Shown here: positions 9,409-53,347 of the stretch, piece after piece
Layout of the letters: each line of letters starts with the position of its first letter
Numbering within the stretch: the stretch's first letter is position 1
From: Allostella sp. ATCC 35155
GTDB lineage: Bacteria > Pseudomonadota > Alphaproteobacteria > ATCC43930 > Allostellaceae
Direction: 5' to 3'
NCBI GenBank assembly: GCA_006738865.1
Contig: AP019701.1
Location: 5,033,974 to 5,097,973 of the forward strand
Length of the DNA stretch: 64,000 nucleotides
Program-made: the position numbers and the translations under genes
The notes under the pieces: generated by a model
What the model saw: the letters and a program-made list of their open reading frames with translations, nothing else
What the model was told of the DNA's origin: nothing
The model's database searches: none

Positions 9409-12254
<2,846 letters not shown>

Positions 12255-12258
<4 letters not shown>

Positions 12259-12746
12259 GCCGCGCCGGCACCGGCCTCGTGGCGGCGGCGGCGATCTTCG
12301 CCGCCGACCAGGCGAGCAAGCAGTGGATGCTGGAGTTCCTCCAGGTCCAGGGCGGGCTGGCCCGCGGCCGCTTCGTGCCGCTGACCGACTTCTTCAACCT
12401 CGTCGTCGTCTGGAACCGCGGCGTCAGCTTCGGCATGTTCGCCGGCCAGGACGACATGGTGCGCTGGATTCTGTCGGGCCTCGCCATCGCCGTCTCGATC
12501 GCGCTTGCCGTCTGGCTGTTCCGCACCACGGACCGGCTGGTGGCGCTCGGCCTCGGCTGCGTCATCGGCGGGGCGATCGGCAATGTCGTCGATCGCGTCC
12601 GCTTCGGCGCAGTGTTCGATTTTCTCGACTTTCACGCCGCCGGATATCACTGGCCCGCCTTCAACGTGGCGGATGCCGGCATATTCGTCGGGGTCGCTGC
12701 GTTGTTGGTGGACGGGTTGTTCCGCCGCCGGGAAGGGCATACATAG
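12255..12746 (+). CDS. lspA: lipoprotein signal peptidase (signal peptidase II)
   Basis: A 163-residue, four-segment inner-membrane aspartyl protease. The catalytic aspartates are D113 in G-N-V-V-D-R-V and D140 in N-V-A-D-A-G-I, and the usual N-R-G-V-S-F-G motif lies before them. It removes the signal peptide from diacylglyceryl-modified prolipoproteins. Its ATG overlaps the ileS stop. The next gene downstream codes for a predicted lipoprotein; several other likely substrates are encoded in this window (MltA, the MbnP-like protein, the 52-residue lipoprotein). Confidence 0.97.
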
Positions 12747-12753
12747 GTCGGCC

Positions 12754-13347
12754 ATGAGCGAGCAAGCGAAGCGCCACAGGACGAGGAATTCCGCCGCCGT
12801 GGCCGCCCTGGTCGCGGTCGCCCTAGGAACGGGCGCGTGCGGCAATATCCGCCAGCAGATCGGGCTCGACAAGCAGGTGCCGGACGAGTTCCGCATCGTC
12901 TCCCGCCCGCCGCTCAGCGTTCCGCCAGACTTTTCGCTGCGCCCGCCGGAGCCGGGCGCACCGCGGCCGCAGGAACAGGCGGTGGTCGACCGCGCGCGCC
13001 AGACGGTCTTCCGCGCCCAGCCATCGGCGGCGACCCCGACCCGCGAACTGCCCGCCGGTGCCAGCAGCGGCGAAACGGCGCTGCTGCAACAGGCCGGCGC
13101 GGACCATGCCGATCCCAACATCCGGGCGACCCTGGAGCGCGAGGGCATCGGCGCCGAACAGCCGGAACGGACCCTGGTCGACCGGCTGGCGTTCTGGCGC
13201 AGCGCACCGCCGCCGGGCGTCGTCGTCGACCCGCAGCGGGAGGCCCAGCGCCTGCGCGAGAACCAGGCGCTCGGCCGGCCGGTCACGGAGGGCGAGACCG
13301 TCGTCGTTCGCCGCAAGCGCCGCGGTCTGTTCGAAGGAATCCTCTGA
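12754..13347 (+). CDS. DUF3035-type predicted lipoprotein
   Basis: A 197-residue protein with a basic N-terminus, a hydrophobic stretch (A-V-A-A-L-V-A-V-A-L) and a lipobox-like T-G-A-C, giving lipidated C29. The body includes R-P-P-L-S-V-P-P-D-F-S-L-R-P-P, the characteristic segment of DUF3035 proteins, which alphaproteobacteria carry between lspA and M16 peptidase genes. The end is basic (R-R-K-R-R-G-L-F). The function is not known; an envelope role is inferred from the lipobox and the neighbours. It starts 7 bp after lspA. Confidence 0.85.
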   Translation: MSEQAKRHRTRNSAAVAALVAVALGTGACGNIRQQIGLDKQVPDEFRIVSRPPLSVPPDFSLRPPEPGAPRPQEQAVVDRARQTVFRAQPSAATPTRELPAGASSGETALLQQAGADHADPNIRATLEREGIGAEQPERTLVDRLAFWRSAPPPGVVVDPQREAQRLRENQALGRPVTEGETVVVRRKRRGLFEGIL

Positions 13348-13412
13348 TCGCGGCGGTCATCACGGCGCGCCGCCCATCGCAGCAGGCGCCGGCCGGCGCG
13401 GGAGGGTGGACG

Positions 13413-14792
13413 ATGTCCAGCGGGAACTGGTTGCGGGCGGTGACGGCTCGGGCGCTCGCCGCGGCCGCGCTGCTCATGCTGGCGGTGGCCGAACCGGCCG
13501 CGGCCGCCGACGATTCGGGAAAGCTGGCGCCGGAAGCGGTCACCCTCGAGAACGGACTGACCCTCGTCGTCGTCGCCAACCCGAACATGCCGGCGGTCGC
13601 CCACTACGTCTTCTACAAGGTGGGCGCGATCGACGAACCCAGAGGCAAGTCGGGCATCGCCCATTTCCTCGAACATCTGATGTTCAAGGGCACGCCGTCG
13701 GTGCCCGATGCCGCCTTCTCGCGCGTCATCGCCAGCAACGGCGGACGCGACAATGCCTTCACCAGCTACGATTTCACCGGCTACTACCAGCTCGTTCCAG
13801 CCGACAAGCTGGGCCTGGTGATGGAGATGGAGGCCGACCGGATGGCCAACCTCGCCTTCACCGAGGCGCAGGTGGAATCCGAGCGTCGCGTCGTGCTGGA
13901 GGAGCGCTTCTCCAGGACGGACAACAGCCCTTCCGCCCAGCTGCGCGAGCAGACCCGCGCCGCCCTCTATCTCAACCACCCCTATCGCCTGCCGGTGATC
14001 GGCTGGGAGCATGAGATCCGCGCGCTGACCCACGCCGACGCCCGCACCTTCTACGAGCGCTGGTACACCCCGAACAACGCGATCGTCGTGCTCAGCGGGC
14101 GGGTCACGATGGCGGAGGCGAAGCCGCTCGCCGAACGCACCTATGGGCGCGTCGCCGCGCGGCCGCTGCCGCAACGGGCGGTGCTGCAGGAACCGGCGCG
14201 GGTGGCCGAAACGCGCATCGAACTCGCCAGCGAGAAGGTGCGGCAGCCCTACGTCAACCGCGCCTATATCGCGCCCAGCCTCTTCAGCGGCGACGCCAGG
14301 CATGCCTATCCCCTGGAGGTGCTGGCCGTTGTCATGGGCAGCGGCGTCTCCAGCCGGCTGAACCGGGCGCTCGTCCTGGACGGCAAGCTGGCGGTCTCCA
14401 CAGGCACCAGCTACGACAGCAACCAGCGCGGTCCGGCCACCTTCAACATCTACGCCACGCCGCGCCAGGACGTGCCCGTGCCGGCCGTCGAGGCGGCGAT
14501 CGGCGCGGAGGTCGAGCGCGTGCTGGAATCGGGCGTGACCGCAGCGGAGGTCGAGCGCGCGATCCGCCGCGTCCAGGATTCCGCCGTCTATGCCCGCGAC
14601 AGCCTCTCCGGCCCGGCCCGGATCGTGGGCAGCGCGCTGGCGATCGGCCTGCCGCTGGAGGAAGTGGACGCGTGGCCGGAGCGGATCGGTGCCGTGACCG
14701 TCGAGCAGGTGATGGATGCCGCCCGCCACGTGTTCCAGCCGCGCAACCTGGCAACGAGCATCCTGCTGCCCAAGCGGGCGCAGGGATCCTGA
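13413..14792 (+). CDS. M16 family zinc metallopeptidase, catalytically intact
   Basis: A 459-residue pitrilysin/insulinase-family peptidase with an N-terminal signal peptide (hydrophobic segment ending A-A-A-A-D). The inverted zinc motif is H-F-L-E-H at 84-88, and the distal glutamate falls in E-R-R-V-V-L-E-E about 75 residues on, so the active site looks complete. The product is likely periplasmic or anchored at the inner membrane. GGAGGG six bases upstream supports ATG 13413. It forms a pair with the following inactive-looking M16 gene; in such pairs the two subunits usually work as a heterodimer. Confidence 0.93.
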   Translation: MSSGNWLRAVTARALAAAALLMLAVAEPAAAADDSGKLAPEAVTLENGLTLVVVANPNMPAVAHYVFYKVGAIDEPRGKSGIAHFLEHLMFKGTPSVPDAAFSRVIASNGGRDNAFTSYDFTGYYQLVPADKLGLVMEMEADRMANLAFTEAQVESERRVVLEERFSRTDNSPSAQLREQTRAALYLNHPYRLPVIGWEHEIRALTHADARTFYERWYTPNNAIVVLSGRVTMAEAKPLAERTYGRVAARPLPQRAVLQEPARVAETRIELASEKVRQPYVNRAYIAPSLFSGDARHAYPLEVLAVVMGSGVSSRLNRALVLDGKLAVSTGTSYDSNQRGPATFNIYATPRQDVPVPAVEAAIGAEVERVLESGVTAAEVERAIRRVQDSAVYARDSLSGPARIVGSALAIGLPLEEVDAWPERIGAVTVEQVMDAARHVFQPRNLATSILLPKRAQGS

Positions 14793-45915: not shown

Positions 45916-46422
45916 ATGCTGGCGCCGGCCGCCATCCTGGTGCTGCTGGCCAGCGCGCTGTTCGCGTGGTTCGCCGGCCGCCGCCTGCCAAGGCCCTGGA
46001 ATCGCATCGGCGTCGCGCTCGGCCTGGCGCCGCCGGCCGCCATCCTGGCGGCCCTGGCGGCGGGGCTGGTCTCCGGCTGGTTCGGATGCGCCGAGCATTC
46101 TCTCTGGCGCAACCGGACCGCGGACGGGCGCTTCGTCGTCGCCGCGACCGCGATCGCCTGCGAAGGTGCCGATACCGGCTACAACATCCTGGTGGAGGAA
46201 GTGCGACCCGACGGCAGCCCGGGAAAGGTGCGCGCGATCTGGCGCAGCCTCGGCAGTCCGGTGCCCGTCGCCGTCGACCACGTGCCGCCGGCGACATTCA
46301 CGGTCCGCGCCCATGACGGCACGGCCGAGCGGCGGCCGGTGGCGCCGGCGGAAGTCCGGCTCGAGGGGAGCGCACTGACGCCGTCGCGGATGTGGTCCTT
46401 CCGGCACGGCAAGGCCACCTGA
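45916..46422 (+). CDS. hypothetical membrane protein downstream of hslU
   Basis: A 168-residue protein of unknown function. Two hydrophobic segments (residues ~3-19 and ~32-54) are followed by a mainly beta C-terminal domain of about 110 residues, with the second segment ending in L-V-S-G-W-F-G-C. The C-terminal domain would lie on one side of the inner membrane. No recognised motif was found. It starts 17 bp after hslU and its stop abuts the stop of the opposite-strand XRE gene (TGA|TCA). Confidence 0.6.
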   Translation: MLAPAAILVLLASALFAWFAGRRLPRPWNRIGVALGLAPPAAILAALAAGLVSGWFGCAEHSLWRNRTADGRFVVAATAIACEGADTGYNILVEEVRPDGSPGKVRAIWRSLGSPVPVAVDHVPPATFTVRAHDGTAERRPVAPAEVRLEGSALTPSRMWSFRHGKAT

Positions 46423-46827
46423 TCAGGGCGCGCTGCCGGTACGGCGGCGGCCGACGGCGCGCGGGCGCGCCTCCTCGGCATCGTCCAGCAACCGGTGCAT
46501 GGCTTCGATCGTGGGCGGTGACAGGTGGCGTATCGTGCGCGCGAGTCGGTTCGCCAGTTCCGTCGCGCGCGGCGCGAGGCCCGAAGTGTCGACGACGGCG
46601 CGCGGATGCGACACACGGGCAGCCCGCTCCAGCGCCTCCGCATCATCCCAGATGATCCCGAAATATTCGCAGATCTGAATCAGCAGGGCACGGCTCGGCC
46701 GGCCCTTGCGACCATGCTCCAGCGCCGACAGGTAGGCCGCGGAGATCTCCAGATCGGCGGCCATTCCCTTCAGCGTGAGACCGCGCTCCGCCCGCAGCCG
46801 GCGTACCGCTTCGCCGAATGGCGTCAC
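46423..46827 (-). CDS. XRE-family helix-turn-helix regulator ending the PqqD/HprK-like/GT operon
   Basis: A 134-residue protein. The HTH is at about 5-60 (F-G-E-A-V-R-R-L-R-A-E-R, L-T-L-K-G-M-A-A-D-L, A-A-Y-L-S-A-L-E-H-G-R). The second half (P-R-A-T-E-L-A-N-R-L-A-R-T near 90) is predicted helical, and the C-terminus is basic. This one-helix-bundle XRE type is widespread in alphaproteobacteria. Its ATG overlaps the preceding glycosyltransferase stop by 4 nt, so it is the last gene of a five-gene operon that it might regulate; that is inferred. Confidence 0.8.
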   Translation of the reverse strand: MTPFGEAVRRLRAERGLTLKGMAADLEISAAYLSALEHGRKGRPSRALLIQICEYFGIIWDDAEALERAARVSHPRAVVDTSGLAPRATELANRLARTIRHLSPPTIEAMHRLLDDAEEARPRAVGRRRTGSAP

Positions 46828-47528
46828 TTGCGGGGCTCGCCGTCCGGCATGGATCGCCGACGGTGCAGGTGCTCGCGGATCGCGCGCACATAGTCCAGGC
46901 GGCGATCGTCCCCCCGCAGCCGCCCGATATTGCCTCCGTGATGGCGTCGCCGCAGGACGACATCGGGCAGCACGACGTAGCGCTCGCCGGAATGCTCGAC
47001 CCGGAGCAGCCAGCTCATGAACTCCGCCACCCGCAGATCCTCCCGGAAGTGGCCGAGGCGTCCGAACACCGCGCTACGCACCAGCATCGCCCCCGGTACC
47101 AGCGCCGGCATCGCCTGATCCGGAACGTGGATCGCTGCCGCCTCGGCGGCCGGCACATCGGGGCTGAGGAACTGCTCGGCATGGCCGAAGCACATCGTCA
47201 GGGAGGGATCGGCGCAGAGGGCCCGCATCAGCAGGCTGGCGTGATCGGGCGTCCACAGATCGTCGCAATCCAGGAAGGAGACGAACGGGCTCTCGACCAG
47301 TTCGACGCCTCGATTGCGGGCCGCGCCGATGCCCGAGGGCGGGATGGAGACCACCAGCGGCCGCAGCGGGTGCGCCGCCGCCACGCGCGCCCCGTCGTCG
47401 GTCGACCCGTCATCGACGACGATGGTGCGCTCGACCGGCAGCGTCTGCCGGGCGATGCTGTCCAGCGCCTCCCCGACATAGCGGGCACCATCGCGCATCG
47501 GGATGACGACGGAAATCCCGCTCGTCAT
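46824..47528 (-). CDS. GT2-family glycosyltransferase (second of the operon)
   Basis: A 234-residue GT-A-fold transferase. It begins I-S-V-V-I-P-M-R-D-G, then V-V-D-D-G-S-T-D-D near 38-46, G-A-A-R-N-R-G near 70, and the D-x-D-like F-L-D-C-D-D near 86. No membrane segment is present, so it acts in the cytosol or at the membrane face. It overlaps both neighbours by 4 nt. Acceptor and sugar are unknown. The R-R-R-H-H-G-G-N-I-G near 195 is the C-terminal motif often seen in these enzymes. Confidence 0.88.
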   Translation of the reverse strand: MTSGISVVIPMRDGARYVGEALDSIARQTLPVERTIVVDDGSTDDGARVAAAHPLRPLVVSIPPSGIGAARNRGVELVESPFVSFLDCDDLWTPDHASLLMRALCADPSLTMCFGHAEQFLSPDVPAAEAAAIHVPDQAMPALVPGAMLVRSAVFGRLGHFREDLRVAEFMSWLLRVEHSGERYVVLPDVVLRRRHHGGNIGRLRGDDRRLDYVRAIREHLHRRRSMPDGEPRK

Positions 47529-48289
47529 GGCCCTGGCTCCGCCGGAGACGGTGGCAGCTCCGCGAGAAAATCCTCGAACGCCGGCAGGGGCGGCGGCGGA
47601 TTTCCCTGCCGCCTGCGGCGCAGGAGCGACCGGGCGATGGCGGAGGCGAAGTGCTGTCGCATGGCCGAACGATGCCGCGTCATGTTGCTGTCGTGCAGGT
47701 GATAGAGGAGCACGACCCGGGGCAGGGTCTCCAACGCGGCTCCGCTCTCGAACCAGCGGAAGAACCAGTCAACGTCTTCGGCATAGCGCATGTCCGGGGC
47801 GAAGCCGCCGATCCGCTCGAAGAGAGAACGGCGATAGAGGCCGGTGCCGAGCTGGGGAAAGAAGGCCGGATACATCGGCATGCCGATGGCGGACCATGCG
47901 GCCTCGGCCTCCGGCGAATCGGTCACGATCTGCAGTTGCCCGACGATCCCGTCGAGGTCGGGGCGTGCCTCGAGATAGGGCAGTGTCCAGGCCAGCCGGC
48001 CGGGTGGCCATTCGTCGTCCACGTCGATGAAGGCGATGACGGGTGCCCGGGCCATCGTGAGGCCGGTGTTGCGGGCGGCGGCCGGGCCGCCATTGGCGGT
48101 CCGCGCCCAGCGGATCCGACCCTCGGCCGCCAAGTGCTCGCACAATCGCGGCGTTTCGTCGATCGACCCGTCGTCGACGACGACGATCCCCACCCCGTCG
48201 ACGCCCTGCGCTTCGATCCGCTCGATGGCGCCGTGCAGGTGCCGCGCGCCGTTGAAGACCGGCACGACGACGTCGACGCGGTGCGTCAT
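47525..48289 (-). CDS. GT2-family glycosyltransferase (first of the operon)
   Basis: A 254-residue GT-A-fold transferase with V-D-V-V-V-P-V-F-N-G at the start, V-V-D-D-G-S-I-D-E, A-A-A-R-N-T-G and the D-x-D-type I-D-V-D-D-E-W. Its closest visible relative is the next gene, with which it shares overall order and length, including R-Y-A-E-D-V-D-W in place of R-V-A-E-F-M-S-W, and a basic tail. A duplication is likely. ATG 48289 overlaps the HprK-like stop by 4 nt. Confidence 0.88.
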   Translation of the reverse strand: MTHRVDVVVPVFNGARHLHGAIERIEAQGVDGVGIVVVDDGSIDETPRLCEHLAAEGRIRWARTANGGPAAARNTGLTMARAPVIAFIDVDDEWPPGRLAWTLPYLEARPDLDGIVGQLQIVTDSPEAEAAWSAIGMPMYPAFFPQLGTGLYRRSLFERIGGFAPDMRYAEDVDWFFRWFESGAALETLPRVVLLYHLHDSNMTRHRSAMRQHFASAIARSLLRRRRQGNPPPPLPAFEDFLAELPPSPAEPGP

Positions 48290-49341
48290 CGCGACGGTAC
48301 CCCCTCCAGGATCTGGAGGATGGCGTGCGGAATCTGCCCGAGGTCGGTTCCGGCCGCCAGCTCGAAGCATGGGACCGACATGCACAGTCGCGTCAGCTTG
48401 GCCAGCGTCGAAGCGGCGTGGCCCGGCAGGTGGGCCAGTGTGGTCGGGGCCAGTGCCCGGATCGCGGCCGCCGCCGGCACCCGGCGCACCGACGTATCCA
48501 CGAGGCCGGTGACACGGGGCAACACGACCGCGCGGATCGGCATCTCCGGCACCAGCGCATCGGGGAAGCCGCGACTGCCGTAGATCAACGCCTTCTCGCC
48601 GGGCTCGCGGTCCGGGTTCCAGACATGCTCCGCAAGCTGGGGAAACCGGCGCAGGGCATCGTCGGTGAACTTGGCCGCACAGTAGAGGCTGTAGACGATC
48701 GGCGGCGGCGCCGTCCCGACCAGCACATAGTCGTCGCCGGCATAGGACAGCCCGCCTGCAAGGCAGGCGATCGTCGTGGTCGTCTTCCCGGACCCGCTCG
48801 GGCCGGTCACGAGCACGCCGCCGTCGGGCCGGCCGACGGCGCCGGCATGGACGGGCTGCAGGCCCGTGTCCGCGAGCCAGGCATGGAAGATCGGGCGGAA
48901 CGGGAAGCTGCGCTCCCAGTAGGGCAGCGGCCGGCGCAGGTGATAGAGCGCCACGCCACGTTGCCGGTCGAGTACCGAGACGCTGTCGGCGCCAAGCTGA
49001 TAGAAGGCCGAGAATCGCCCATCGCCGAGATCGATGCCGCCGCGCTGGCCATAGGCCTCCGCCGGCCAGGGGGCGGGCGGCAGGTGCGCCGTCGCTTCGC
49101 TCCAGGCATGGATCGCGATCTCCGCCGCGCCGTCTTCGGGTAGCCGGATGTGGGCGAGGGTGGGGGCGATGGCCGACGCCACCGCCTCGCCCGCACAAAC
49201 GAGCCGGAATGCGGCCGGTCCCAGCCGGTAGCGGTGCTCGATCCGGCCCGCGGCTTCGTGGGCGCTTTCCGCCACCGCCAGCGCGTCCGCGAAGAAGCGC
49301 TCGAGGGCGACCATCGGGACGTCGGCCGGGCGGCCCGGCAT
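48286..49341 (-). CDS. HPr kinase-like P-loop protein paired with PqqD
   Basis: A 351-residue protein. The C-terminal half resembles the kinase domain of HPr kinase: H-A-G-A-V-G near 165 and a Walker A loop G-P-S-G-S-G-K-T at 180-187, then Y-A-G-D-D-Y near 200. The N-terminal ~150 residues are particular to the PqqD-associated branch. Such proteins are known tailoring kinases in some lasso-peptide clusters but are also common in uncharacterised operons; HPr is not the expected substrate. ATG 49341 starts 2 bp after the PqqD stop; a GTG at 49347 would overlap that stop. Confidence 0.8.
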   Translation of the reverse strand: MPGRPADVPMVALERFFADALAVAESAHEAAGRIEHRYRLGPAAFRLVCAGEAVASAIAPTLAHIRLPEDGAAEIAIHAWSEATAHLPPAPWPAEAYGQRGGIDLGDGRFSAFYQLGADSVSVLDRQRGVALYHLRRPLPYWERSFPFRPIFHAWLADTGLQPVHAGAVGRPDGGVLVTGPSGSGKTTTTIACLAGGLSYAGDDYVLVGTAPPPIVYSLYCAAKFTDDALRRFPQLAEHVWNPDREPGEKALIYGSRGFPDALVPEMPIRAVVLPRVTGLVDTSVRRVPAAAAIRALAPTTLAHLPGHAASTLAKLTRLCMSVPCFELAAGTDLGQIPHAILQILEGVPSR

Positions 49342-49343
49342 CG

Positions 49344-49802
49344 TCACAGACCGGTTGCCGGAGCCTTGACCGGCCACCCCACCTCGTCGACGTCGTGAAC
49401 GGGATCCAGCGCCAGGAGCGCCTGGACATCCGTGAACCGCTGCAGGGCCAGCGCCTCCCGGACCACCTCGGGAACGGCCCCCTCCGTCGGCGCGCCCGCG
49501 GGGGGCGGCTCGACGGCAATCAGCGCCTCGTCGTAGAGGCCTGCCACGAACTGGTCGAGCGCCGGCCGGAGCGCCTCGTCCGCCAGCGCCGCCTCGATCG
49601 CAAGCCGTCGTCCGAGTTCGGCCACCGTGGTCGATCGGACGAGATCCTGCCACAGCACGGCACCGACGCCCTGGAGGCTGTAATAGGTTCCGGACTGGAG
49701 ATTGATGATGACCGCCTCGCCATCGAGGGTCTCGTGCACGATCGGATTGCCGCGTGCGGTCAGCCGGGTGTCATCGGTGAGGTACATCGCATTCCTTGCC
49801 AT
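49344..49802 (-). CDS. PqqD-family protein with a long conserved-looking C-terminal tail
   Basis: A 152-residue protein (147 if ATG 49787 is used; AAGGA lies five bases before it). Residues ~6-95 form a PqqD domain: V-H-E-T-L-D-G-E-A-V-I-I-N-L, S-G-T-Y-Y-S-L-Q-G-V-G, L-W. PqqD is the peptide-recognition fold (RRE) that binds leader peptides in RiPP pathways. After a proline-rich joint (96-108), a tail of about 45 residues includes L-L-A-L-D-P-V-H-D-V-D-E-V-G-W-P. No separate precursor peptide is seen nearby. A TAATAT (-10-like, minus strand 49835-49830) overlaps the smr stop. Confidence 0.82.
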   Translation of the reverse strand: MARNAMYLTDDTRLTARGNPIVHETLDGEAVIINLQSGTYYSLQGVGAVLWQDLVRSTTVAELGRRLAIEAALADEALRPALDQFVAGLYDEALIAVEPPPAGAPTEGAVPEVVREALALQRFTDVQALLALDPVHDVDEVGWPVKAPATGL

Positions 49803-49832
49803 CGAGCAGCCGGGCCAAGCCTGAACCCCATA

Positions 49833-50357
49833 TTAGCGTCGCCGGCGCAGCAGCAGATAGAGGGCGCCGGCACCGCCGTCGCGCGGCTGCGCTTCGGTGA
49901 AGGCCAGGACATGCGGGCGCACCGCCGGCTCGTTCAGCCAGCGCGGAACCATCCGGCGCAGCACCCCGCGCTCGGTGCCGCCCCAATCGCCCCGGCCGGT
50001 GATCACCAGGAGACATCGGCGGCCCTGCGCCACGCCCGCGCGCACGGAGCCGAGCAGCGCGGCATAGGCCTCCGCCTGGGTCAGTCCGTGCAGGTCGAGC
50101 CGCCCGTCGATGGCGATCCTTCCCCGCTTCAGCCGTTCGACGGTGCGGGCATCGACATCAATGGCCGCACCGGAACCGAGCAGGGAAGATCGCGGCGACG
50201 GTTGCGGCCTGGCCTCCGGTCGCGGCAGAGCCGGCGCGCTCGCTTCGACCGCCGGGAGCGTCACCGCAGCGCGGGCGGGGGGCGCTCGTTCGCCCCGACG
50301 GGGCAGTGGGTCGACGTCGGCGACCGCGCGTCGCCACAGGTCACGGTCGCGGACCAT
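49833..50357 (-). CDS. Smr/MutS2-type endonuclease domain protein
   Basis: A 174-residue protein: W-R-R-A-V-A-D-V-D-P-L near the start, a proline-rich linker, then the Smr domain with L-D-L-H-G-L-T-Q near 93-100 and V-I-T-G-R-G near 125. Smr domains bind or nick nucleic acid, in DNA or ribosome-associated RNA processes. Its ATG lies inside the lutC coding region (17-bp overlap). In many alphaproteobacteria smr follows mltA and the Tim44-like gene; here the lut genes lie between. Confidence 0.88.
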   Translation of the reverse strand: MVRDRDLWRRAVADVDPLPRRGERAPPARAAVTLPAVEASAPALPRPEARPQPSPRSSLLGSGAAIDVDARTVERLKRGRIAIDGRLDLHGLTQAEAYAALLGSVRAGVAQGRRCLLVITGRGDWGGTERGVLRRMVPRWLNEPAVRPHVLAFTEAQPRDGGAGALYLLLRRRR

Positions 50358-51084
50358 CGGCGGCGGCTCCGGGCGTGTCGCCGCGACGTTCCACAAGGAC
50401 GATGTGCAGGCGGCGCGGACCATGGGCGCCGAGCTGGATCTTCTGCTCGATATCGCCGGTGCGCGAGGGCCCGGTGATGAAATTGACCGTCCTCGGCATC
50501 CCGCCGCCGCGCCCCGCCTGCTCCGCCCGCAGCCGGAGCCAAGCCTCCTCGTAGGGACCGACCACCTGGTCGGCATAGAGAACGACGATGTGGGTGTCCG
50601 GAAGGAAATTGAGTGTGGTCGGGCGGTGCGCATCGGAAGCGAGCATCAGGGTGCCCGTCTCCGCGATCCCGGCGAAGGCCGGCGTGACCGACACCGGATC
50701 GTCGCCCTGGGAACGTCCGCGATGGATCGCCAGGAGCGGGCGTTCCGACCAGGGAAACGCATCGAGGGCAGGGTCGGGCGACATCACGATCTCGCCCGGC
50801 AGGTTGAGCCCCGCGAGATACTCTGCGACCGCCCCGGGAACCGCCGCAGGGTCCGGCACCCGATCGATCGTCGTGCTCACGGCTTCGGCCATGCGCACGA
50901 AGAGATCGAGCATCTCGGCCGGCGGCAGCGCCGCGCGCGTCGGGATGAGATTCCGGGGATGTTCCGCGATACGACGCTGCAGCGGTTCGGCGGCCGCGCC
51001 CTCCAGCGCGCCGCGACCGAGGGCGCGGCGAATGGCGCCCAGCATCTGGCCGCGACCATCCCCTGCCGGCTTGCGGATCGTCAT
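50341..51084 (-). CDS. lutC: LutC-like LUD-domain protein
   Basis: A 247-residue LUD-domain protein. It carries F-A-G-I-A-E-T-G-T-L and L-P-D-T-H-I-V-V in the second half, the LutC pattern. LutC works with LutA and LutB in an iron-sulfur L-lactate oxidation complex. Its ATG overlaps the lutB stop by 4 nt, and its end overlaps smr by 17 nt. Confidence 0.9.
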   Translation of the reverse strand: MTIRKPAGDGRGQMLGAIRRALGRGALEGAAAEPLQRRIAEHPRNLIPTRAALPPAEMLDLFVRMAEAVSTTIDRVPDPAAVPGAVAEYLAGLNLPGEIVMSPDPALDAFPWSERPLLAIHRGRSQGDDPVSVTPAFAGIAETGTLMLASDAHRPTTLNFLPDTHIVVLYADQVVGPYEEAWLRLRAEQAGRGGGMPRTVNFITGPSRTGDIEQKIQLGAHGPRRLHIVLVERRGDTPGAAADGPRP

Positions 51085-52499
51085 CGCCGACCGCGCTCGG
51101 CCCATTGCGCCTGGAACGTCCGGCCTTCGGGGGCGGGCATGTCGCGCACGCCGGTCCAGCCGCCGGCGAGCGGCAGCGCGCCGAAGCGGCCCTTGCGCCG
51201 TCCGAGTCGGCCCAGGACGCCGGCCGCCAGCCGCGCGACCGCGCCGTAGAGGGCCGGGCGGGCGGCAAGGAATGCCCATGCCCCGAGGCCCCATCGCGCC
51301 GTGGCCGGTCCCAGCCCGCGCTCGACCTGCCGCTCGCGCCAGTGGCGCATCATCTTGGGCAGCGGGATCTTCATCGGACAGACGCTCTCGCAACGGCCGC
51401 AGAAGGTCGAGGCATTGGGCAGATGGCCGGCTTCGTCGATCCCGATCAGTCCCGGTGTCAGCACGGCCCCCATCGGGCCGGGATAGACCCAGCCATAGGC
51501 GTGGCCGCCGACCGCCGAATAGACCGGGCAGTGGTTCATGCAGGCCGAGCAGCGGATGCAGCGCAGCATCTCGTGGAACTCGGTCCCGAGCATGGCGCTG
51601 CGGCCGTTGTCGAGGAGGACGACGTGATACGCCTCCGGACCGTCGAGATCGCCCGGCCGGCGCGGACCGGTGGATACCGTGGTGTAGGAGGAGAACTCCT
51701 GTCCGGTCGCCGAACGTGCCAGGAGACGCAGGATCGTCGACACGTCCTCCAGCGTCGGCACCACCTTCTCGAGGCTCGCCAGCACGATGTGAACCTTGGG
51801 CAGGGTCTGCGTCAGGTCGCCGTTGCCCTCGTTCGTGACGATGATCGAGGAGCCGGTTTCGGCAATGAGGAAGTTCGCACCGGTGATGCCGACATCGGCC
51901 GCCAGGAACTTCGACCGCAGGATGGTGCGCGCCTCGTCGCAAAGTTCGCGCGCCTCGTTCAGGGACCGGTCCGGCGGCAGGTCGGTATGGCTGCGCCGGA
52001 AGGTTTCCTCGACGTCGGACTGGTTGAGGTGGACCGCCGGGGCGATGATGTGGCTGGGTGGCTCCTTGCGGAGCTGGATGATGTATTCGCCGAGGTCCGT
52101 CTCGACCGGCTCGATCCCGTTCTCCTCGAGGTAGTCGTTGAGCGCGATCTCCTCCGCGATCATCGACTTGCCCTTGGTCACCGAGCGGGCGCCGGCGTCG
52201 CGACAGATACCGAGAATGGTCTCCCGTGCCTCGGCCGCCGTCCGGCACCAGTGCACCTGTCCGCCGCTCTCTACGACCTTCTCCTCGTACCGTTCGAGGT
52301 ACCAGTCGAGATGCGCCAGCGTATGGTTCTTGATGTCCCGCGCGATGTCCCGCAGCTGCTCGAACTCGGGCAGCGCGGCGGCGGCCACGCGCCGACGCTC
52401 CTGGAAGCCGTGGCGCAGGTTCTCCATCGCGCGCTGCAGCCTGGGGTCGTGCAGCGCGCGCTGGGCATTGTCCTTGAAGGCGTGGGAAGTCGACTGCAT
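51081..52499 (-). CDS. lutB: LutB-like iron-sulfur protein of lactate utilisation
   Basis: A 472-residue protein. An N-terminal LUD domain contains the G-A-R-S-V-T-K-G-K-S near 107, and the C-terminal half holds two ferredoxin-type [4Fe-4S] motifs: C-I-R-C-S-A-C-M-N-H-C-P and, about 50 residues later, C-G-R-C-E-S-V-C-P. LutB passes electrons from lactate within the LutABC complex. It starts five bases after lutA. Confidence 0.93.
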   Translation of the reverse strand: MQSTSHAFKDNAQRALHDPRLQRAMENLRHGFQERRRVAAAALPEFEQLRDIARDIKNHTLAHLDWYLERYEEKVVESGGQVHWCRTAAEARETILGICRDAGARSVTKGKSMIAEEIALNDYLEENGIEPVETDLGEYIIQLRKEPPSHIIAPAVHLNQSDVEETFRRSHTDLPPDRSLNEARELCDEARTILRSKFLAADVGITGANFLIAETGSSIIVTNEGNGDLTQTLPKVHIVLASLEKVVPTLEDVSTILRLLARSATGQEFSSYTTVSTGPRRPGDLDGPEAYHVVLLDNGRSAMLGTEFHEMLRCIRCSACMNHCPVYSAVGGHAYGWVYPGPMGAVLTPGLIGIDEAGHLPNASTFCGRCESVCPMKIPLPKMMRHWRERQVERGLGPATARWGLGAWAFLAARPALYGAVARLAAGVLGRLGRRKGRFGALPLAGGWTGVRDMPAPEGRTFQAQWAERGRR

Positions 52500-52504
52500 C
52501 GGCC

Positions 52505-53284
52505 TCAGCTCCGGTCCGCGGCGCCGATCGGCGGCCGGTCGGCCATGTCGGCCAGAACCTCCGCCACATGGCGGACGGCGACCGGCACACCAAGGCGGGA
52601 CAGCTTGCCCGACATGTTGAGCAGGCAACCCATGTCACCGGCGAGGAGGGTGCCCGCGCCGGTGCGGCGGATGTCCTCCGCCTTGTCCGTGACCATACGG
52701 TCGGAGATCGCCGGATACTTGACGCAAAACGTCCCGCCGAACCCGCAGCACGTCTCCGCCCCCGGCAGCTCCGCGATCGTCAGGCCCTCGACCGACCGCA
52801 GGAGCTGGCGGGGCTGCTGCTTGACGCCGAGCTCGCGCAGACCGGAGCAGGAGTCGTGGTACGTCACGGCACCGTCGAAGCGCGCATCGACGCGGCGCAT
52901 GCCGCGCACATCGACCAGGAAGGAGACCAGCTCATGGCTGCGCTTGGCCAGATGCTGCGCGGCGAGTGCCATGTCGGGTTCGTCGGCGAAGAGCTCCGGA
53001 TAGTGCTCGTGCAGCATCCCGCCGCAGGATCCCGAAGGCGCCACGACATAGTCGACGTCCGCGAAGGCGGCGATCACCTGGCGCGCGACGCGCTTGGCGC
53101 GCGCGCGGTCGCCGGAATTGTAGGCCGGCTGGCCGCAGCAGCTCTGCGGTGGCACCACGACCGAGCAACCGGCAGCCTCCAGCAGCTTGACGGCGGCAAA
53201 GCCGACCGTCGGGCGGAACAGGTCGACCAGACAGGTGACGAGAAGGCCGACCCGGCAGGAGGCGGCGTTGGCGGGTGTTTCCAT
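52505..53284 (-). CDS. lutA: LutA-like CCG-motif protein of lactate utilisation
   Basis: A 259-residue protein with two CCG domains: C-L-V-D-L-F-R-P then C-C-G-Q-P-A-Y-N-S-G-D in the first half, and H-D-S-C-S-G-L-R with C-C-G-F-G-G-T-F-C in the second. These bind iron-sulfur clusters, as in the glycolate/lactate and heterodisulfide reductase families. ATG 53284 is the first methionine at the conserved start. It is the first gene of lutABC here; no GntR-type regulator is beside it. Confidence 0.93.
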   Translation of the reverse strand: METPANAASCRVGLLVTCLVDLFRPTVGFAAVKLLEAAGCSVVVPPQSCCGQPAYNSGDRARAKRVARQVIAAFADVDYVVAPSGSCGGMLHEHYPELFADEPDMALAAQHLAKRSHELVSFLVDVRGMRRVDARFDGAVTYHDSCSGLRELGVKQQPRQLLRSVEGLTIAELPGAETCCGFGGTFCVKYPAISDRMVTDKAEDIRRTGAGTLLAGDMGCLLNMSGKLSRLGVPVAVRHVAEVLADMADRPPIGAADRS

Positions 53285-53347
53285 TGGCTGCGGAGAATGG
53301 GCGCGGTGACCGCACGGGTCAACGGGCGCCCGAGACACCGGGCGGCA

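Follow-up and report, generated by a model that had tools for sequence, protein, structure and literature searches.

Does the run of PqqD-like, HprK-like and glycosyltransferase genes in Allostella sp. ATCC 35155 constitute a genuine functional system and, if so, which genes belong to it and what might they do? The genes lie in a 64,000-nucleotide stretch of contig AP019701.1 (the window), taken from a genome that consists of a single 5.34-Mb contig (G000). A first-pass annotation had proposed a five-gene operon that encodes a PqqD-domain protein, an HprK-like P-loop protein, two family-2 glycosyltransferases (GT2s) and an XRE-type regulator. We find that the first four genes form a cassette that is a real recurrent system and part of a wider one, whereas the XRE gene is a resident neighbour and not a member. 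In what follows, G001, G002 and G003 are congeners of the window's organism, and L-numbers denote fetched loci.

All five open reading frames (ORFs) are on the minus strand, and their spacing is exactly as first described: a 2-nt gap between the PqqD and HprK-like genes, then 4-nt overlaps at the HprK-like/GT2a, GT2a/GT2b and GT2b/XRE junctions. The PqqD start may lie at 49787, because the G001 protein begins at the equivalent of MYL. The extent of the unit is revealed by G003. Window positions 46023-46827 and 49837-53328 align by blastn to adjacent G003 bases (3606 and 3607 of L067), and the block between them is an insertion or deletion that holds exactly PqqD, HprK-like, GT2 and GT2; in G003 the Smr-domain gene abuts the XRE gene. 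Comparison of G001 with the G003 locus gave the same clean empty site. Among the four genomes of the genus, the HprK-like gene is present in G000, G001 and G002 and absent from G003, while all four, the window's own included, have the XRE gene (86% for the G003 orthologue). Because G003 has XRE but none of the other four genes, its empty site rules out XRE as a part of the unit. A five-gene unit in which XRE is a dedicated regulator would agree with the shared direction and the 4-nt overlap with GT2b. However, in G003, where the cassette is missing, the XRE start and the Smr ORF show an overlap of equal length (4 nt), and no XRE gene was noticed in cassettes outside the genus, where no search aimed at it was made; we consider this arrangement very improbable.

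Table 1. Coordinates of the genes and features discussed, in window positions unless another locus is named
Feature	Position	Strand	Description
PqqD-family protein with conserved C-terminal extension	49344..49802	-	152 aa; start possibly 49787
RRE fold proper	49500..49769	-	PqqD residues 12-101; model residues 6-95 aligned to 5v1v
Tail RFTDVQALLALDPVHDVDEVGWPVK	49365..49439	-	PqqD residues 122-146; hallmark of the PqqD subfamily
HprK-like P-loop kinase (putative)	48286..49341	-	351 aa; His165, Walker A GPSGSGKT 180-187, Asp203-Asp204
GT2 glycosyltransferase a	47525..48289	-	254 aa; C-terminal SLLRRRR; PF00535 E 3.4e-23
GT2 glycosyltransferase b	46824..47528	-	234 aa; C-terminal HLHRRR; PF00535 E 9.4e-20
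XRE-type regulator	46423..46827	-	134 aa, GTG start; HTH_31 E 4.2e-12; co-directional resident neighbour
Smr-domain gene	49833..50387	-	PF01713 E 3.9e-21; resident neighbour upstream
Four-gene cassette block	46828..49836		between XRE and Smr; in window and G001, not in G003
Second own-genome locus	L115 8045-9862 (G000:C1 ~1171545-1173361)		tailed PqqD and two GT2s, no HprK

The first-pass annotation had suggested that a real system should show GT2 genes beside PqqD and HprK-like genes in unrelated genera, and this is what we observed. The PqqD protein carries a characteristic C-terminal tail, described below, and we located 25 loci with this PqqD type in several phyla. Within 10 kb, GT2 genes are present at 25 of these loci, HprK-like genes at 23, genes for NTP_transf_5 proteins at 19 and ABC exporter genes at 6; the 25 loci include two with a degenerate tail and also served to train the GT2 and HprK profiles. 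HprK is missing from a 3.7-kb contig and from the second locus in the window's own genome. Since a locus discovered through HprK is no evidence of HprK linkage, the 12 loci first found by PqqD alone (L102-L106, L115, L156-L161) were counted separately; there HprK occurs 10 times, GT2 12 times and NTP_transf_5 10 times.

As a control we used 67 PqqD places, each with flanking sequence of up to 1.5 kb at either end. A GT2 gene lies within this distance of 16 of the 18 tailed PqqDs (14 of 16 minus two duplicates) and of 4 of the 49 others (Fisher p 5e-9, with rows that are related and therefore not independent). The four include both degenerate-tail rows, and the 49 include a contig-end row, L091. 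HprK-profile matches accompany 14 of the 18 tailed and 17 of the 49 other PqqDs, and the combination of HprK and GT2 is found beside just two of the 49 PqqDs without a full tail, again the degenerate-tail rows. Fifteen untailed PqqDs have an HprK-profile match and no GT2 within ~1.5 kb (L084, L086, L094, L095, L098, L100, L101, L113, L132, L140, L141, L145, L146, L148, L155); possibly these are a separate cassette type, with HprK-related kinase A.

It might seem that so patchily distributed a set of genes, present in 5 of 397 foreign genomes of a phylum sample, is an accident of gene order. This idea is contradicted by the counts at the 25 loci, by gene fusions (below) and by the untailed-PqqD control, and we regard its probability as next to nil. 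The first-pass annotation expected, in the event of such an accident, to see the PqqD/HprK-like pair mainly with asparagine synthase and ABC transporter genes and the glycosyltransferases in an unrelated polysaccharide locus. That pattern did not appear: lasso B2 (PF13471) had no match in 12 of the 18 genomes tested, G000 to G003 among them, while asparagine synthase was not profile-searched.

The phylum sample comprised 398 genomes. An extended HprK match (E <1e-25; next best 1e-9) occurs in five foreign genomes, and a tailed PqqD at E 1e-10 in exactly these five and no other foreign genome; a sixth PqqD match, in G282, is untailed. In a class sample, 25 of 337 genomes match at 1e-10, and besides the window's own genome the tail occurs in G049, G1041 (two places) and G1127, with a degenerate form in G1071 and G983; G1041 also gives a third, partial PqqD match. 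Among 395 genomes of a Bacteroidota sample, 25 match the PqqD alignment at 1e-6; six of these are tailed (one already known), accompanied in every case by HprK and GT2 genes at the same locus, and a seventh, G796, cannot be judged because a contig end cuts its PqqD. A scan of genome contigs recovered five relatives, namely congener G002 and four Bacteroidota loci, which belong to a Chitinophaga metagenome-assembled genome (MAG), two further MAGs and Ohtaekwangia koreensis and have the order PqqD-HprK-GT2-GT2-ABC-NTP_transf_5 (Pfam check on the Ohtaekwangia copies). Of 72,556 plasmid records, one carries a relative: Crinalium epipsammum NC_019735.1 (pCRI9333.04), with a rearranged cassette of PqqD, NTP_transf_5, HPr kinase, FkbM, GT-A, oxidoreductase, GT-A, SMP-30, TPR, nucleotidyltransferase and ABC genes. 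No relative of the HprK-like protein was found in viral contigs. The cassette was thus found in Alphaproteobacteria, in another class of its phylum, in Bacteroidota and on a cyanobacterial plasmid.

In three genomes (G568, G663 and G631), HprK and GT2 are fused. The GT2 domain (PF00535) occupies residues 383-505 of 603 in L104 and 418-525 of 638 in L103; the fusion in L105 was recognised by local profiles. Each of the three fusion cassettes has a tRNA-Ala gene (GGC) ~250-400 bp upstream of its PqqD gene (L103 8986-9060, L104 9496-9570, L105 8665-8739), a possible integration site. Proteins of ~450-480 aa with the sequence FTDQL follow these cassettes (L103 16058-17458, L104 18222 onward, L105 14799-16241), and the L103 protein has no Pfam match. 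In an HprK tree, which has several long branches and weak deep forks, the alphaproteobacterial rows are not one group: the window clade stands apart, and a fully supported branch unites two rows of genus g42 with L106, a row from the Bacteroidota sample. Together with the scattered occurrence, the clean empty site and the positions beside tRNA genes, this tree fits horizontal transfer of the cassette.

The most distinctive component is the PqqD protein. The best matches in a structure comparison of its model are the RiPP recognition elements (RREs, where RiPP denotes ribosomally synthesized and post-translationally modified peptide) of lasso peptides, and we describe it as a lasso-B1-type RRE; the model, whose numbering is that of the window protein (P0001) minus 6, is hardly covered beyond residue 96. 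Both the fold and the family score (PF05402 E 8.9e-9, 36 bits against a Pfam cut-off of 23.4) place the protein in the PqqD/RRE family. The protein differs from an ordinary discrete RRE in its long conserved C-terminal extension, which ends in DP[IV]H[DE]..GWP in 25 of 27 PqqD rows. In alignments of 19 and 18 rows, six of the ten invariant PqqD columns fall in the tail, which is more conserved than the RRE itself; with 26 rows, degenerate ones included, the figure is two of five. A survey of RREs noted RRE-GT2 fusions and found 21% of PF05402 proteins to be larger than a discrete RRE yet to have no further Pfam annotation (PMC12710340). The tailed PqqD belongs to this oversized, unexplored share of the family.

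Just before the tail, the linker contains a leader-like motif, [FYW]xxPx[hydrophobic], in 16 of 27 rows and 10 of 15 groups. In a set of 24 rows the motif is present in 15, as against a mean of 0.06 and a maximum of 2 in 2000 shuffles, and it is close to the RRE-binding motif of lasso and linear polyphosphorylated peptide (LPP) leaders. The second PqqD copy of the window's genome (L115 9413-9862) carries it as FSPPVV. Additionally, the PqqD model has an extra strand at P0001 residues 121-123, probably at the site to which a bound leader would contribute a strand. The tail and the embedded motif raise the question of whether this RRE binds its own C-terminus.

The HprK-like protein is a distant member of the HprK-like kinase superfamily, to judge from its His, Walker A and Asp-Asp elements and its extended homology. 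A 16-member family alignment compared with 12 HprK-like proteins gave 99.4% and E 2.4e-21 over 259 columns (hhalign). H165, G185, K186, D203 and D204 are invariant in the 16 homologues; we take the catalytic roles of His165, Walker A and Asp203-Asp204 to be those of HprK.

The cassette GT2s appear to be a subfamily with a basic C-terminus. Among GT2-profile ORFs at the loci, 54 of 59 carry, among their last 60 residues, a stretch of three or four positions of which three are basic, often reading SLxRRR. For comparison, 50 GT2 places were found in G000 and G001, of which 30 were fetched and 22 of these are non-cassette. The cassette GT2 profile matched non-cassette ORFs at 8.4e-57 or worse and cassette ORFs, on which it was trained, at 1.8e-69 or better. 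A KR triplet occurs in the last 50 residues of 3 of the 22 non-cassette GT2s, compared with 3 of the 4 distinct cassette ORFs picked. The basic GT2 C-terminus and the acidic PqqD tail together may point to docking.

The gene set named in the first-pass annotation was incomplete, in that a further partner, NTP_transf_5 (PF14907), adjoins the cassette in most genomes and is encoded elsewhere in the window's genome. This family is present in 22 of 23 genomes, i.e., in all 22 cassette genomes tested, and the exception is G003; it occurs in 2 of 14 controls. G000, G001 and G002 each have two copies, unlinked to the cassette and beside a trypsin-like gene. At another site, the same three genomes encode a further tailed PqqD together with two GT2s of the cassette subfamily, and G003 has no tailed PqqD. 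Thus three unlinked loci (the cassette, the second tailed PqqD and the NTP_transf_5 pair) are all present in G000-G002 and all absent from G003, a pattern that rests on four genomes and represents one or a few events rather than statistics.

Several observations concern the surroundings of these loci. In G000 (L166 ~9622-14400; G000:C1 ~991622-996400), the two NTP_transf_5 genes flank the trypsin-like protease, which has an apparent signal peptide; the protease gene lies between the pair in G000 and G001 and before both in G002. We considered this protease (PF00089) as a processing enzyme or substrate and rejected it, as it is a resident that G003 keeps (72% identity) without NTP_transf_5. A 659-aa ORF in another genome (L169 154-2133; G176:C200) combines the stretch PHPLFDVAYYRRCNPD with an NTP_transf_5 domain, and an 871-aa ORF near the second PqqD of the window's genome (L115 4484-7099) has a like stretch, PHPLFDPRWYVERYPD.

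Our preferred interpretation, to which we give about an even chance of being correct, is that the cassette is a horizontally moving phospho-glycosylation module, scaffolded by an RRE and related to but distinct from the tailoring set of lasso and LPP pathways. The lasso-B1-type RRE would serve as adaptor and scaffold. The HprK-like protein would use ATP to phosphorylate a hydroxyl group on the substrate delivered by the RRE, the two GT2s would add sugars to the phosphate or beside it, and NTP_transf_5 would act in the same chain. The most likely role of the conserved PqqD tail is that of a docking arm that holds the enzymes, and the leader-like segment upstream of it may lie in or near the RRE's own peptide groove. 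Kinase activity, the order of steps, docking and a peptide or protein acceptor are all things that we infer.

It is important to consider the observations that weigh against this interpretation. The HprK-like protein scores under every curated cut-off (PF07475 13.9 of 33.3 bits; TIGR04352 18.8 of 200). The tail has a pLDDT (predicted local distance difference test) of ~50 in the PqqD model, i.e., low confidence, and docking is not visible there. The window's own PqqD copy has no leader-like motif. G1071 and G983, which are congeneric with each other, have kept the cassette enzymes with a truncated or degenerate PqqD tail (L159 7146-7544, L160 10102-10557), which ends in LLALDPPLPAAPR where others have DPIHEVDxxGWP. 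The L115 locus lacks HprK although PqqD and GT2s are present. NTP_transf_5 of the Bacillota LPP system had no detectable effect in a heterologous host (PMC13381572). Finally, two loci (L057 and L115) lie in glycan loci by Pfam, and no co-encoded precursor was found; both points are taken up below. As a separate observation, the cassettes of G1071 and G983 have an extra ORF of 371-373 aa that reads as a family-4 glycosyltransferase (GT4), plus two NTP_transf_5 genes.

To look for a substrate, we took 23 of the 25 loci (all but L156 and L161) and compared the 383 ORFs of 25-220 aa that lie between genes at a distance of up to 4 kb; small genes under wrongly chosen longer ORFs could be missed. 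Only PqqD recurs convincingly between groups. Apart from PqqD, 34 ORF pairs link different genus groups (best E 3.4e-6), mostly Arg/Pro-rich frames of GC-rich DNA, and we judged them to be chance. When ORFs of the same size and position were scanned for [YW]xxPx[hydrophobic] within their N-terminal 45 residues, there were five matches, none of which resembles an LPP-type precursor (YxxPxVLxHQxIxFETxxS) by eye.

With no precursor found beside 23 loci, the product could instead be a surface polysaccharide or glycolipid: the HprK-like protein would phosphorylate a sugar or lipid-linked intermediate, the GT2s would extend it, PqqD would be a scaffold only, and no ribosomal peptide would be involved. 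Several neighbourhoods would agree with this. PF00953 (WecA/MraY-type), ABC2_membrane and ABC_tran lie near the L057 cassette; a group-1 glycosyltransferase with an extra C-terminal part, a PMT_2-like protein and a further GT2 surround L115; and the Crinalium plasmid has FkbM, two GT-A, NAD(P)-dependent oxidoreductase, SMP-30 and TPR genes. However, the RRE fold best matches lasso peptide RREs, and RRE, HprK and NTP_transf_5, with or without ABC, are the tailoring set of peptide pathways (PMC13381572). Furthermore, no Wzx/Wzy-type gene was recognised by eye beside the window cassette, where none was searched; downstream in L060 lie membrane-type ORFs of 527 and 415 aa. We consider a glycan product unlikely, though to be taken seriously.

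A further possibility is that the tailed PqqD is itself the precursor, with RRE, leader ([FYW]xxPx[hydrophobic]) and a fixed "core" (DPIHEVDxxGWP) joined in one chain, which the kinase and GT2s would modify in cis. This would account for a leader-like motif directly before the tail, for tail conservation exceeding that of the RRE, for the extra model strand and for the missing separate precursor. The tail, however, has no conserved Ser or Thr: L059, L159 and L160 have none from the anchor onward, and the anchor position itself is T in 10 rows, S in 4 and D in 13. LppK, by comparison, modified Ser only among Ser, Thr and Tyr (PMC13381572). The retention of enzymes beside truncated tails and the lack of the motif in the window copy also speak against it, and we regard it as quite improbable.

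Returning to the RRE-scaffolded module, we also entertain a broader and decidedly speculative proposal, on balance improbable, that the cassette represents an unnamed cross-phylum phospho-glycosylation family. Its RRE would carry a leader motif and an invariant peptide (DPIHEVDxxGWP) in cis, presented to the kinase and GT2s either as acceptor or as permanent docking arm. If true, the system would resemble a RiPP machinery whose substrate is built in and does not vary. In any case, the system can readily be recognised and tested by comparison, thanks to its tail motif, the HprK::GT2 fusion and a congener that lacks each of the three loci.

How does the cassette relate to known systems? The homologous kinases of HprK-related kinase A (TIGR04352) are also encoded beside PqqD genes (hhalign as above), and the window protein reaches 18.8 of the 200 bits required. 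Mycofactocin is an RRE pathway (MftB) with a GT2 (MftF). MftF is among the top NCBIfam matches of both cassette GT2s, at 76.5 and 52.8 bits of 280 and thus far under the cut-off, and no radical SAM enzyme was noticed at the loci, where no search was made. The SynChlorMet cassette pairs ScmC with ScmD, which are HprK-like and PqqD-like, respectively; the window proteins score 13.5 of 125 and 17.4 of 100 bits. In the open-access literature that we searched, we found no description of PqqD, HprK and GT2 as a system apart from lasso clusters.

Lasso clusters are closer. Those of paeninodin/pseudomycoidin and of ruminal Butyrivibrio share with the cassette a B1-type RRE (PqqD), an HprK-like kinase, a nucleotidyltransferase and an ABC exporter (PMC8498205, PMC7533575). 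A phosphorylated lasso cluster has been named from a proteobacterium, and the pseudomycoidin NTP transferase adds hexoses to the phosphate on the precursor (PMC8498205). The Butyrivibrio fibrisolvens cluster includes a family-2 glycosyltransferase, and glycosyltransferases occur in 36% of complete ruminal lasso clusters (PMC7533575). There is therefore precedent within lasso clusters for a GT2 beside PqqD, HprK and a nucleotidyltransferase, and the link is not new there. However, those clusters have LasA, LasB and LasC, and lasso membership fails for the window's genome because it has no B2 match. A macrolactam cyclase (asparagine-synthetase-like) was not noticed in the ORF lists of the loci; no profile or genome-wide search for it was made.

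The most similar systems are the LPP clusters described by Popov et al. 2026 (PMC13381572), which comprise a discrete RRE, an HprK-like kinase, NTP_transf_5 and an MsbA-like ABC exporter, have no cyclase of their own and often lie in polysaccharide loci. The window's genome has an RRE with an HprK-like kinase, albeit with the long RRE extension, and NTP_transf_5 (LppN) in its two unlinked copies. No MsbA-like exporter lies within 10 kb in the window, while the four Ohtaekwangia-type loci share RRE, HprK-like kinase, NTP_transf_5 and ABC exporter with LPP. The differences are that LPP has a separate precursor and an SpI-like peptidase (PMC13381572), whereas no adjacent precursor was found for the cassette and no SpI-like leader peptidase was noticed among the ORFs read (no profile search was made), and that the cassette has GT2s as constant members and a conserved tail on its RRE. 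LppK and paeninodin-type HprK kinases phosphorylate a precursor Ser, LppK acting on Ser and not on Thr or Tyr, and LPP and paeninodins are called restricted to Bacillota (PMC13381572). The cassette carries a phosphate/sugar tailoring set of this kind to Proteobacteria, Bacteroidota and Cyanobacteria, outside lasso clusters and with the GT2s constant. LppN has been speculated to need a partner encoded outside the LPP core cluster (PMC13381572), and the cassette GT2s are candidates for such a role.

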